This document shows, piece after piece, positions 3,952 to 8,830 of a stretch of 64,000 nucleotides of DNA; within the stretch, counting starts at the first letter, position 1, and each line of letters opens with the position of its first letter. The stretch is from Halomicrobium urmianum. Its GTDB lineage: Archaea; Halobacteriota; Halobacteria; Halobacteriales; Haloarculaceae. The position numbers and the translations under genes were made by a program. The notes beneath the pieces were generated by a model. It ran no database searches, had not been told where the DNA came from, and saw nothing but the letters and a program-made list of their open reading frames with translations. The DNA lies in the NCBI RefSeq assembly GCF_020217425.1, contig NZ_CP084090.1:1860001-1924000 (forward strand), read 5' to 3'.

Positions 3952-4617
3952 ATGAGCGAGAGCGACGAGCCGGCGACCGACTACGGCGCGGACGACTGGG
4001 AGGACCCGGCCGACGCCGCGGTACCGAAGTCGGAACTGCCCGACGAGATCGTCGAGAACGTGCCCGACTGGGAGGACCCCTACCTCGACCGGGTGAGCGA
4101 CCGGTTGATGTACAACTACGACCTGAAGCGAGGCCACGTCCTCCAGGGCGAGACGTGGGACCTCCACGGCGAGATGCGGGTGCTGAACCAGAAGCAGTTC
4201 TTCCACCCGGCGCTGTCCTACGGGGACCACGAGTCCGAGGAGTACCTCTACGCCCGCCGGGTCGGCCGGCCGACGGTCGGGGAGCTGGAGCGACTGGTCG
4301 AGCTGGGCCACGACCTGGCCGACGAGCGCGTCGACGGCAACGAGGAGCACTTCCGGACGGACTTCACGTTCGTCCTCGTCGCCGACGAACTCCCCGACGA
4401 CGTCCGCGAGTACGTGGCCGGCCAGCGAGAGCGGACGCTCCTGAAGTTCGGCTACTACGGCCACTACGAGGTGAACCTCGGCGTCGTCGTGCCCGACCGC
4501 CGGGCGGTCGCCGCCGGCGAGGCCGCCGACGTCGTCGAGGCCTTCCGGCTCTGGGAGGACGTCTCGAAGCCGGACGAAGGATTCCTCTCGAGGTTCGCGA
4601 AGCGGTTCTGGAAGTGA
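3952..4617 (+). CDS. conserved haloarchaeal protein of unknown function
   Basis: 221 residues, strongly acidic at the N-terminus, with no membrane segment. Distinct stretches are VPDWEDPYLDRVSDRLMYNYDL, the aromatic KFGYYGHYEVNLGVVVPD and a basic tail ending RFAKRFWK. Composition and codon use match real haloarchaeal genes. I do not recognise the family. It stands alone on the plus strand, convergent with the ArsA-CstA chimera, with a TATA-like GGGCTTATTT about 80 bases upstream. Confidence 0.65.
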   Translation: MSESDEPATDYGADDWEDPADAAVPKSELPDEIVENVPDWEDPYLDRVSDRLMYNYDLKRGHVLQGETWDLHGEMRVLNQKQFFHPALSYGDHESEEYLYARRVGRPTVGELERLVELGHDLADERVDGNEEHFRTDFTFVLVADELPDDVREYVAGQRERTLLKFGYYGHYEVNLGVVVPDRRAVAAGEAADVVEAFRLWEDVSKPDEGFLSRFAKRFWK

Positions 4618-4671: not shown

Positions 4672-7023
4672 TCAGTCGTCGCTCGGTTCGACCGCAGCGC
4701 CGCCGAACCGCTCGCGGACCCGCGAGACGTTGTCGTAGCCCTTCTTGACCAGCGCCAGTGCCAGGCTGATCAACACGAGCGCGAGTATCATCTGGACGGC
4801 GGCCGACACGAGACCGAGCCCGCTGGCGCCGCCCTGGATGATGTTCTGGTAGAGGTTCTCGTAGAACGCCAGCCAGGCCAGGCCGAGCACGGTGATGGTC
4901 ACCATGACGGCCATCGGCACGCCAGTGGAGTACAGCTGCTTGTTGTCGTCCCAGTTGGCGAGCCAGACGGTGCCGGTCAGCAGCGCGAGCGCGGCCAGCA
5001 GCTGGTTTGCGCCGCCGAACAGGGCCCACAGCATGGCCCACTGGCCGGAGACGATCATGAGGTAGGCCGCGACGATCTGGATCAGCGGGTTGGTGTAGCG
5101 CCCGCGGCCGATCTCGCCAAGCGTCGAGCGGAGGCCGCCGCCGACATCGAGACCGGTGCTGGTCTCGCCGGCCGGGAGGCCGACGATCTCCTCCATCATG
5201 TACCGCCCGAGGCGGGCGGCCGTGTCAGTCGACGTGAGCAGGAAGCTCACGAGCACCAGTGCCATGAACGGCGCCCCGTAGGCGGCCGGGAGCCCGAGGC
5301 TGGTGAGGATGATGCCGCCACCGGTCGCGAAGTTCGGCAGCGCGGCGCCGATGCCACCGGCCGGATCGGGGAACCCGGCCACGGCGAGCGTCGACAGCGC
5401 GACGGCCGCCAGCAGGCCCTCGCCGAGCATGCCGCCGTAGCCGATCAGGCGGGCGTCGGACTCCTTGTTGAGCTGCTTGGCGGTCGTTCCGGAGGACACC
5501 AGCGAGTGGAAGCCGCTGATGGTCCCGCAGGCGATGGTGATGAACAGCAGGGGGAACAACGGGTACAATCCCGCGGCCTCGACGCCCCAGAACCCGTCGA
5601 AGGCGCTGATCGACGGGTCGATGGTCAGCGGCTCCGCGGACGTGCTGAGCAGCGTGCCGACGACGATCGCCAGCAGCGAACCGCCGACCCCGGCGTACAG
5701 CAGGAACGACGACAGGTAGTCGCGCGGCTGGAGGAGCACCCAGACCGGCAAGGCGCTCGCGACGGCGGCGTAGATCAGCACGACGGGAACCCAGGCTGCG
5801 ACGTTGCCGCCGCCCAGCGCCTGGGCCCCGGGGAGCCACGAGCCGTCGCCGCCGAACAGGACGATGACGGCCATGTCCGCGGTCCGCTCGGCGGTCGGCT
5901 CGAACAGCGCGAGGGGGTACTGGATCCCGATCCAGACCCCGGCGAACACGCCGGCGACGAACAGCACCGTACCGGGGATGAACGGACCGTTCAGCTGGTA
6001 GAGGTACACCCCGAACGCGAGCGCCAGTGCGATGTAGACGAACGACGCCGTCACGGCCTCGGGGTAGGCGTTGAAGACGATCCCCACCACGAGCGCGAAC
6101 ACGGCGACGACGAGGATGATCGTCAGGAACGCGAACCACAGCAGCATGTTCTTGCCGCTCTCGCCGACGTACTCGCCGATGATGTACCCGATCGACTTCC
6201 CCTCGTGCCGGAGCGACCCCGACAGCGAGACGAAGTCGTGGACGGCGCCCATCAGCGGGTTCCCGATGGCGACCCACAGGAGGGCGGGCAGCCAGCCCCA
6301 GATGGCACCCGCCGTGATCGGACCGACGATCGGCGCGCCCCCGGCGATGCTGGAGAAGTGGTGTCCCAGCAGCACCGGTTTCTTCGCCGGTACGTACTCC
6401 TGCCCGTCCTCGTACTTGTGCGCCGGCGTCTCGTTCGCGTCGTCGAGCTCGAGGAACTCGCCGTCCATCACGCGCCGGGGCTCGTTGTTGCCGATGGCGG
6501 CCTTCTCGAAGAGGTCGATGCTCTTCTCGCGCTTGTGCATCAGCCGCTCGATCCACCCCTCCAGGAACTCCGGCAGGCCCAGCAGGCGGAGCGTGCTGCC
6601 GGTCGGCGAGGTGTCGAACACGACCCGGTCGTAGGGATCGGCGTTTCGCATCACGTCGACGAAGCGGTCGAACAGCGCCGACTCGTAGGCGCCGGGCGTC
6701 CGGTGGGCCATCTCCAGCTGCTGGTTGATCTCGTTGACCATCGCCGCCGACACCTGCTCGGAGAGGTCCGACCGGATGCCGTCCAGGTGGCGCTGGACCT
6801 CCTCGTCGGGGTCGATCTCCATCGCGTAGAGGCCGTCGATCCCCTCGACTGGCGCCGGGTCGTCGCTGAACTGCTGGTCGAACACGTCTGAGACGGAGTG
6901 GGCCGGGTCCGTGGAGACGACCAGCGTCTCCCGGCCCGCCCGGGCGCACTTCAGGCCGTAGGCGCAGGAGACGGTCGTCTTGCCGACCCCGCCCTTGCCG
7001 CCGAAGAAGACGAACGGCTCCAT
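4672..7023 (-). CDS. chimeric protein: truncated ArsA/Get3-type ATPase fused in frame to CstA carbon-starvation carrier
   Basis: 783 residues. Residues 1-188 are the N-terminal part of an ArsA/Get3 ATPase: deviant Walker A FFGGKGGVGKTT, switch STDPAHSVSDVF, then VVFDTSPTGSTLRLLGLPEF and EPRRVMDG. The frame then continues without a gap into FLELDDANETPAHKYEDGQEY and VPAKKPVLLGHHFSSIAGG, a CstA protein lacking roughly its first 30 residues including transmembrane segment 1, and runs through the remaining membrane segments (IAGGAPIVGP, SGTTAKQLNKESDARLIGYG) to the end. Roughly the last 100 residues of the ATPase are missing. The start at 7023 is the ATG whose A is shared with the preceding stop codon. 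A deletion-born fusion, a functional fusion or an assembly join are all possible. Confidence 0.85.
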   Translation of the reverse strand: MEPFVFFGGKGGVGKTTVSCAYGLKCARAGRETLVVSTDPAHSVSDVFDQQFSDDPAPVEGIDGLYAMEIDPDEEVQRHLDGIRSDLSEQVSAAMVNEINQQLEMAHRTPGAYESALFDRFVDVMRNADPYDRVVFDTSPTGSTLRLLGLPEFLEGWIERLMHKREKSIDLFEKAAIGNNEPRRVMDGEFLELDDANETPAHKYEDGQEYVPAKKPVLLGHHFSSIAGGAPIVGPITAGAIWGWLPALLWVAIGNPLMGAVHDFVSLSGSLRHEGKSIGYIIGEYVGESGKNMLLWFAFLTIILVVAVFALVVGIVFNAYPEAVTASFVYIALALAFGVYLYQLNGPFIPGTVLFVAGVFAGVWIGIQYPLALFEPTAERTADMAVIVLFGGDGSWLPGAQALGGGNVAAWVPVVLIYAAVASALPVWVLLQPRDYLSSFLLYAGVGGSLLAIVVGTLLSTSAEPLTIDPSISAFDGFWGVEAAGLYPLFPLLFITIACGTISGFHSLVSSGTTAKQLNKESDARLIGYGGMLGEGLLAAVALSTLAVAGFPDPAGGIGAALPNFATGGGIILTSLGLPAAYGAPFMALVLVSFLLTSTDTAARLGRYMMEEIVGLPAGETSTGLDVGGGLRSTLGEIGRGRYTNPLIQIVAAYLMIVSGQWAMLWALFGGANQLLAALALLTGTVWLANWDDNKQLYSTGVPMAVMVTITVLGLAWLAFYENLYQNIIQGGASGLGLVSAAVQMILALVLISLALALVKKGYDNVSRVRERFGGAAVEPSDD

Positions 7024-7319
7024 CAGAAGTGGTACTGCTGGCCCTTGCGCTCGATGAGCGTCTCCCGGTCCCACAGCCGGCGCTCCCAGGCTTCGAACTC
7101 GTCCTCGATGTACGGGAGCAGCTCCGCCGTGTAGTAGGACACCGGCGACGGGATGCCGAAGGCGTCGGGGAAACAGGCCAGCATGAACGCGTCCTCGAGG
7201 TCCTCGGCCTCGTTCTCGATCTTCTCGTAGGCGGGGTGGCTGATCATCCCGTGGTACAGCCCGCGGGCCCACTCGCGCAGCGCGCGCTTCGCCCGTTCAA
7301 TGCGGTCGGCCAGCTCCAT
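7023..7319 (-). CDS. small protein translationally coupled to the ArsA-CstA gene
   Basis: 98 residues, start MELADRIERAKRALREW; mostly helical and amphipathic, with a central ACFPDAFGIPSPVSYYTAELLPY. Its stop TGA overlaps the ATG of the ArsA-CstA gene by one base (TGATG), implying coupled translation. The family is not recognised, but the arrangement suggests a partner of the ATPase or of the carrier. An ATG 60 bases upstream would add 20 unlikely residues. It is divergent from the CobW-type GTPase gene. Confidence 0.65.
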   Translation of the reverse strand: MELADRIERAKRALREWARGLYHGMISHPAYEKIENEAEDLEDAFMLACFPDAFGIPSPVSYYTAELLPYIEDEFEAWERRLWDRETLIERKGQQYHF

Positions 7320-7498: not shown

Positions 7499-8830
7499 AT
7501 GAGCGAGTCGATTCCGGTCACGCTCCTCTCGGGGAGCCTCGGTGCCGGGAAGACGACCCTGTTGAACCACCTGCTCGCGAACGCCGGCGAGCGGGACCTC
7601 GCCGTCCTCGTCAACGACGTGGGCGAGGTCAACGTCGACGCCGAACTCGTCGCGGAGGGCTCGGACCTCGACGTCGGCGGCGGCGTCACGGAGCTCTCGA
7701 ACGGCTGCATCTGCTGTGAGCTACAGGACGACCTGGAGGCGGCGGTGATCAGGCTGGCACGGAACCGGGAGTTCGACCACCTCGTCGTCGAGGCGTCGGG
7801 CATCTCCGAGCCCGGCCCGGTCGCGCGGCTGTTCACGACGGAGTCGCGCGTGGCCGCGCTGTACCGCGTCGACGCGCTGGTCACGGTCCTCGACACGCCG
7901 CAGTTCCTCGACGCCTTCGCCGGCGTCCTGGCGAGCGAAGCGAGCCAGGGCTCGGGAGACGAGCGAAGCGAGTCTGCCGGCGTTCCGACGAGTACCGCGA
8001 GTCGGGGCTCGACAGGCGAACGGAGTGAGTCTGTCGACGGCGAGCCCGAGCGCCGCGGCGAGGAGGGCGACCGGCCGCTGTCGGACCTGCTCGTCGAGCA
8101 GGTGGAACTTGCCAACGTCGTCCTGCTGAACAAGGCCGACGTCTGTAGCGAGGCGGAACTCGACGAGGCCGAGGAGCTGGTCGGCGCGCTCCGGCCGGAC
8201 GCCGAGACGATCCGGACGGAGTTCTCGCGGGTCGACCCGGACCGGCTGTTCGACCGCGACCTGTTCGACGTCGAGCGCATGAGCGACCTGTCGGGGTGGA
8301 AGCGGGCGCTCGACGCCGCGGAGGACGAAGCAGACGACCACGCGGGCCGCGAGGACGACGACGACCACGCGGGCCACAGCCACCCGGACGAGGTGTACGG
8401 CGTCACATCCTTCGTCTACCGTCGGCGCCGTCCCTTCCATCCGGAGCGGTTCGCCGAGGCCCTCCGGGAACTCCCCGCGGGCGTCGTCCGATCGAAGGGG
8501 ACCGCCTGGGTCGCCGGCAACGACTCGCGCGTCGTGATCGGTCACGCCGGGCCGTCGATCCGGGCCGAGAGCCGGGGGCCCTGGATCACGGGCCTGCCCG
8601 AGGTCGAGCGGGACCTCTACCGGTCGAACCGACCGGACCTGGAGTGGCACGAGGAGCACGGTGACCGGCAGACGGAACTGGTGTTCATCGGCACCGACTA
8701 CGACGAAGGGGCGATCCGGAAACGGCTGGACGACGCGCTGGTCACCGACGAGGAGTGGGACGGGACCGACGCGCTGTCGGACCCGTTCCCTGGCGAACAG
8801 GACGACCCGACGGTCGTCCGGGAACCCTAA
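7499..8830 (+). CDS. CobW/COG0523 family GTP-dependent metal-binding protein
   Basis: 443 residues. G3E-family signatures are clear: Walker A GSLGAGKTTLLNHLL at the N-terminus, the metal site NGCICCELQDDL (CxCC), EASGISEPGPVARL, and NKAD in the GTPase core. A His-rich acidic stretch, ADDHAGREDDDDHAGHSHPDE, precedes the C-terminal CobW domain (VYRRRRPFHPERFAEAL, later KGTAWVAG). Members insert or store Zn, Co or Ni in target proteins; the metal here is unknown. Residues about 143-182 are a low-complexity insert made by a repeated Glu-Arg-Ser-Glu-Ser DNA unit. Its stop overlaps the convergent zinc-ribbon gene by four bases. Confidence 0.85.
   Translation: MSESIPVTLLSGSLGAGKTTLLNHLLANAGERDLAVLVNDVGEVNVDAELVAEGSDLDVGGGVTELSNGCICCELQDDLEAAVIRLARNREFDHLVVEASGISEPGPVARLFTTESRVAALYRVDALVTVLDTPQFLDAFAGVLASEASQGSGDERSESAGVPTSTASRGSTGERSESVDGEPERRGEEGDRPLSDLLVEQVELANVVLLNKADVCSEAELDEAEELVGALRPDAETIRTEFSRVDPDRLFDRDLFDVERMSDLSGWKRALDAAEDEADDHAGREDDDDHAGHSHPDEVYGVTSFVYRRRRPFHPERFAEALRELPAGVVRSKGTAWVAGNDSRVVIGHAGPSIRAESRGPWITGLPEVERDLYRSNRPDLEWHEEHGDRQTELVFIGTDYDEGAIRKRLDDALVTDEEWDGTDALSDPFPGEQDDPTVVREP
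7930..8040 (+). repeat. two tandem degenerate ~50-bp units inside the CobW gene
   Basis: Two related units read GGCTCGGGAGACGAGCGAAG and GGCTCGACAGGCGAACGGAG, each followed by a variant of CGAGTCTGCCGG or TGAGTCTGTCGAC. Similar GAGCGAAGCGAG strings occur between genes elsewhere in the window. The reading frame passes through both units, adding about 40 Ser/Glu/Gly-rich residues between the GTPase core and the NKAD motif. Confidence 0.6.

Follow-up and report, generated by a model that had tools for sequence, protein, structure and literature searches.

A single open reading frame on the minus strand of the analysed window (64,000 nucleotides of the Halomicrobium urmianum contig NZ_CP084090.1), located at 4672..7023, joins the N-terminal part of an ArsA/Get3-type ATPase in frame to the transporter CstA devoid of its first transmembrane helix. 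This 783-residue chimera is probably the outcome of a real and very recent in-frame deletion, and its product is probably largely defective. Starting from the ATG at 7023, the frame runs through 783 codons without an internal stop. ORF reading and Pfam both bear out the preliminary description, in which one frame was said to combine residues 1-188 of an ArsA/Get3 ATPase with CstA. The ATPase part (6460..7023, minus strand) contains the P-loop GGKGGVGKTT, switch I (DPAHS) and switch II (DTSPTGSTLR), its residues 4-174 match positions 3-168 of the 305 in the ArsA_ATPase profile PF02374 (E 2.8e-50 for the protein), and with 188 bits the chimera also lies above the cut-off of 135 for TIGR00345. 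From residue 190 onwards, the chain matches CstA PF02554 (E 5.1e-123), beginning at profile position 28 of 560; this part (4675..6459, minus strand) extends from the equivalent of CstA residue 28 to the C-terminus. The join itself falls inside codon 189 (GAG for Glu, split after GA), window base 6458 being the last on the ArsA side and 6457 the first on the CstA side.

The ATG of the fused frame overlaps the stop of a gene (7023..7319, minus strand) for a 98-residue protein resembling the NCBIfam family 'cory-CC-star', the upstream partner of arsA, albeit with a score of 54.8 bits against a cut-off of 80. Further out lie a conserved divergent gene for a CobW-family GTPase (7499..8830, plus strand) and, downstream of cstA, a conserved convergent gene for a hypothetical protein without family match (3952..4617, plus strand). 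The CobW-like gene also displays a repetitive stretch of GAGCGAAGCGAG type amid its GTPase domain (window 7925-8065) as well as a His/Asp-rich stretch at about 8330-8390. In relatives, the order cobW / cory-CC-star / arsA / cstA / hypothetical forms a syntenic block, and the CobW GTPase upstream and the family-less gene downstream are common to the Haloarcula-type loci, Halobellus and Halorubrum. Compared with this haloarchaeal block (e.g. in Haloarcula japonica and Halobellus salinus), the chimeric locus agrees in order, strand and neighbours, whereas the block comprises separate full-length arsA and cstA genes, encoding proteins of about 324 and 617 residues, respectively. The expectation that relatives might carry separate arsA-like and cstA genes in the same order was thus confirmed. 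The two halves of the chimera share 83-93% identity with the corresponding stretches of two neighbouring but separate genes in the closest relatives (86% with the Haloarcula japonica protein for the 595 residues of the CstA half), and hence its architecture is not due to chance.

At the DNA level, the locus was compared with four Haloarcula-type loci and Halorubrum aquaticum. In each of these five relatives, the matches break at the adjacent query bases 1043/1044: the alignment runs without gaps to window base 6458 and resumes at 6457, while the relatives hold 746, 664, 667, 664 and 649 bp in between. The roughly 400 lost bases assumed in the preliminary description are therefore an underestimate, the actual difference being 649-746 bp (664-667 bp in three of the four Haloarcula-type loci). 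This missing block contains 136 arsA codons, the arsA stop, an AT-rich spacer, the cstA start and 27 cstA codons. Within the spacer, TATATAATAACTATTAATAGC is conserved in Haloarcula, and the AT-rich region with this element is likely the cstA promoter. A chimera made by deletion should show unbroken synteny on either side and a single continuous stretch missing in comparison with relatives, and both are found here. Among the origins proposed earlier, a recent deletion between adjacent genes is well supported, given that the relatives' genes are intact, adjacent and in the same order with the same neighbours, and that one block of 0.65-0.75 kb is gone.

Both halves of the protein have lost parts of their families' folds. 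With its deviant Walker A P-loop, switch I and switch II, the ATPase half belongs to the ArsA/Get3 family, but its nucleotide domain is incomplete. Residues 189-324 of the relative are absent, and these correspond to the region aligned to the late strands, the Asn of the NQL/NKL motif and the A-loop region. Hence, the ATPase is indeed truncated, although not by the last third as initially estimated but by 136 of 324 residues (42%). In Get3, adenine is selected by an Asn in strand beta-7 and contacted, along with the ribose, by the A-loop, while Get3d proteins without the A-loop still hydrolyse ATP with the rest of the domain kept (PMC10248533). Judged from this comparison, the ATPase half of the chimera would be unable to complete a nucleotide site. 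In contrast to other ArsA/Get3/TRC40 ATPases (TIGR00345, PF02374), it lacks the last 136 residues and is joined to a membrane transporter. The CstA core is recognisable by the PF02554 match and conserved motifs such as HHFSSIAGGAPIVGPITAG, and in E. coli members of this family use protons to drive pyruvate transport (PMC7730263). The alignment with relatives, however, confirms that the usual CstA start is missing, with the first 27 residues absent; the 27 lost codons account for the greater part of helix 1, which a model of the intact protein places at residues 5-30, so that the full set of membrane helices is not present. Every full-length homologue aligned has kept this N-terminal helix, the loss of which probably hurts CstA insertion or activity. 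Compared with the CstA family (PF02554, TC 2.A.114), the first 27 residues and helix 1 are swapped for an ATPase fragment, and the cstA part is without its own promoter and start. The break lies just past the first helix and ahead of a conserved loop with the remainder of CstA whole, which counts against a reading as deletion damage. Structure prediction gave a good model of an intact haloarchaeal CstA (pTM 0.86), with weak matches to LeuT/APC-type folds, and an unreliable one of the fusion (mean pLDDT 42, pTM 0.26), modelled without a deep alignment spanning both halves.

The age of the join can be approached through sequence conservation. None of the 92 ArsA positions with at least 95% conservation (79 sequences) and none of the 272 such CstA positions (98 sequences) is changed; the earlier impression that both halves are well conserved accordingly holds for all 364 strongly conserved positions. 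Likewise, dN/dS of the chimera halves versus relatives is low (about 0.11-0.28). Measured from Halobellus, the chimera is about as distant as Haloarcula: dN of the ArsA part amounts to 0.071 for the chimera and 0.058-0.062 for Haloarcula, and that of the CstA part to 0.125 and 0.125-0.136, respectively. With all 364 codons (about 820 nonsynonymous sites) unchanged, a rough upper bound (95%) of about 0.004 substitutions per site is obtained for unconstrained evolution since the join. If the synonymous divergence of the lineage is set at half of dS 0.36-0.64, this bound equals about 1-2% of it. As neither half has decayed, the join must be very young, or an assembly error, or its product is still under selection; full conservation of both halves thus also fits a functional fusion or a misassembly.

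According to the favoured explanation, a single deletion of about 0.65-0.75 kb would have removed the arsA 3' end, the spacer, the cstA start and the first-helix codons, leaving the frame open by chance (one in three). It would have taken place in the organism, beyond the assembly alone. Expression of the resulting 783-residue chimera would presumably depend on the promoter that serves the cory-CC-star/arsA unit. Its half-ATPase would lie in the cytosol, attached to a CstA that, lacking helix 1, would be impaired or non-functional. Pseudogenisation of the locus would then have just begun, in a genus that can do without the transporter.

An assembly or consensus error, in which the organism possesses intact arsA and cstA and about 0.7 kb was dropped from the assembly, is rather unlikely. 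Such an error would account for a fused form that is a singleton among the matches listed and without trace of decay, and the assembly consists of six contigs, two of them very small. However, the junction is embedded in the 3.36 Mb contig (3,355,004 bp), the 120 bp around the join are unique (next best matches of 23 bp at 96%), and the missing block is found nowhere else in the genome, the 1,649-bp contig C6 reading entirely as N. Judged from the relatives' sequences, neither microhomology nor flanking repeats as a deletion mechanism are seen at the join; with zero common bases, repeat collapse is not an obvious cause either. As a separate observation on the small contigs, the first 2,000 bases of C5 (4,491 bp) have a G+C content of 48%, compared with 68% in the window.

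A selected fusion tethering the ATPase to CstA, also considered in the preliminary description, is clearly unlikely; in it, a truncated ArsA-type module would regulate or power the transporter. The frame is open and free of decay, 59 of 80 named loci have arsA and cstA no more than 400 bp from each other on a common strand, which hints at a functional link, and the positive residues after helix 1 make a cytosolic position of the ATPase half plausible. Against this, 42% of the ATPase chain is gone, including the late strands and the adenine-binding region with its Asn and A-loop, and CstA is without a helix that its aligned full-length homologues all retain. Positive support for the proposal was not obtained from the survey of 391 Halobacteria genomes either. 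Of these, 306 match the junction query, but only this genome yields a join-spanning match among the matches listed, the others beginning at the CstA side, and hence no independent or sister example of a kept fusion appears there. Apparent full-length fusions elsewhere (open frames of 970-1276 residues) proved to be separate genes with stops in all cases checked by ORF reading. Regulation of CstA in this lineage by a half-ArsA that works while tethered to the membrane is very doubtful; if true, it would be a physical form of the ArsA-CstA partnership hinted at by haloarchaeal gene order. An internal start at Met186 (in-frame ATG three codons ahead of the join, at about window 6466-6468), yielding only a shortened, working CstA behind a passive ATPase leader, is highly improbable, as no Shine-Dalgarno-like sequence is seen just upstream and helix 1 would still be absent.

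Within the genus, two genomes possess separate arsA and cstA genes (CstA 62% identical), while in four of six the ArsA-type matches are no more than weak and a CstA match is absent. A recent transfer from Haloarcula, suggested by the presence of CstA in only two same-genus genomes, appears less likely than ordinary descent, since the neighbours on both sides are common also to distant genera. In the genome itself, a second copy, as contemplated earlier, exists for the ATPase only: two other full ArsA-type genes are present, but no CstA besides the chimera. Elsewhere in the survey, a CstA match in genome G362 (C1:2107187-2107399) is part of an open frame just 322 codons long, possibly a second broken CstA.

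Beyond the chimera, the conserved gene neighbourhood itself deserves attention. Of 80 named haloarchaeal loci, 59 have a full-length ArsA-type gene that is followed on its own strand, after 68-387 bp (median 185), by a full-length CstA gene, and 58 of these 59 also carry a cory-CC-star gene ahead of arsA. Variations on this arrangement occur as well. In Natrinema altunense and three genomes of the window's family (loci L055 and L058-L060), the cory/arsA pair and CstA share a strand but are separated by a few kb, with cstA coming first or at a greater distance, so that the block is rearranged, and in Halorubrum distributum (L111) a spacer insertion has extended the arsA-cstA spacing to 1,684 bp from the usual ~185 bp. 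A literature search found no study on an ArsA-CstA link, on cory-CC-star or on the cory-CC-star/ArsA/CstA block. The conservation of this neighbourhood across Halobacteria suggests a functional link between the ArsA/Get3-like ATPase and CstA, and also suggests that the ArsA-family ATPase of the block serves CstA or its membrane insertion. The cory/arsA/cstA block is a more lasting lead than the chimera; if the deletion is real, the strain carrying the latter would offer a naturally arisen mutant in arsA and cstA alike.
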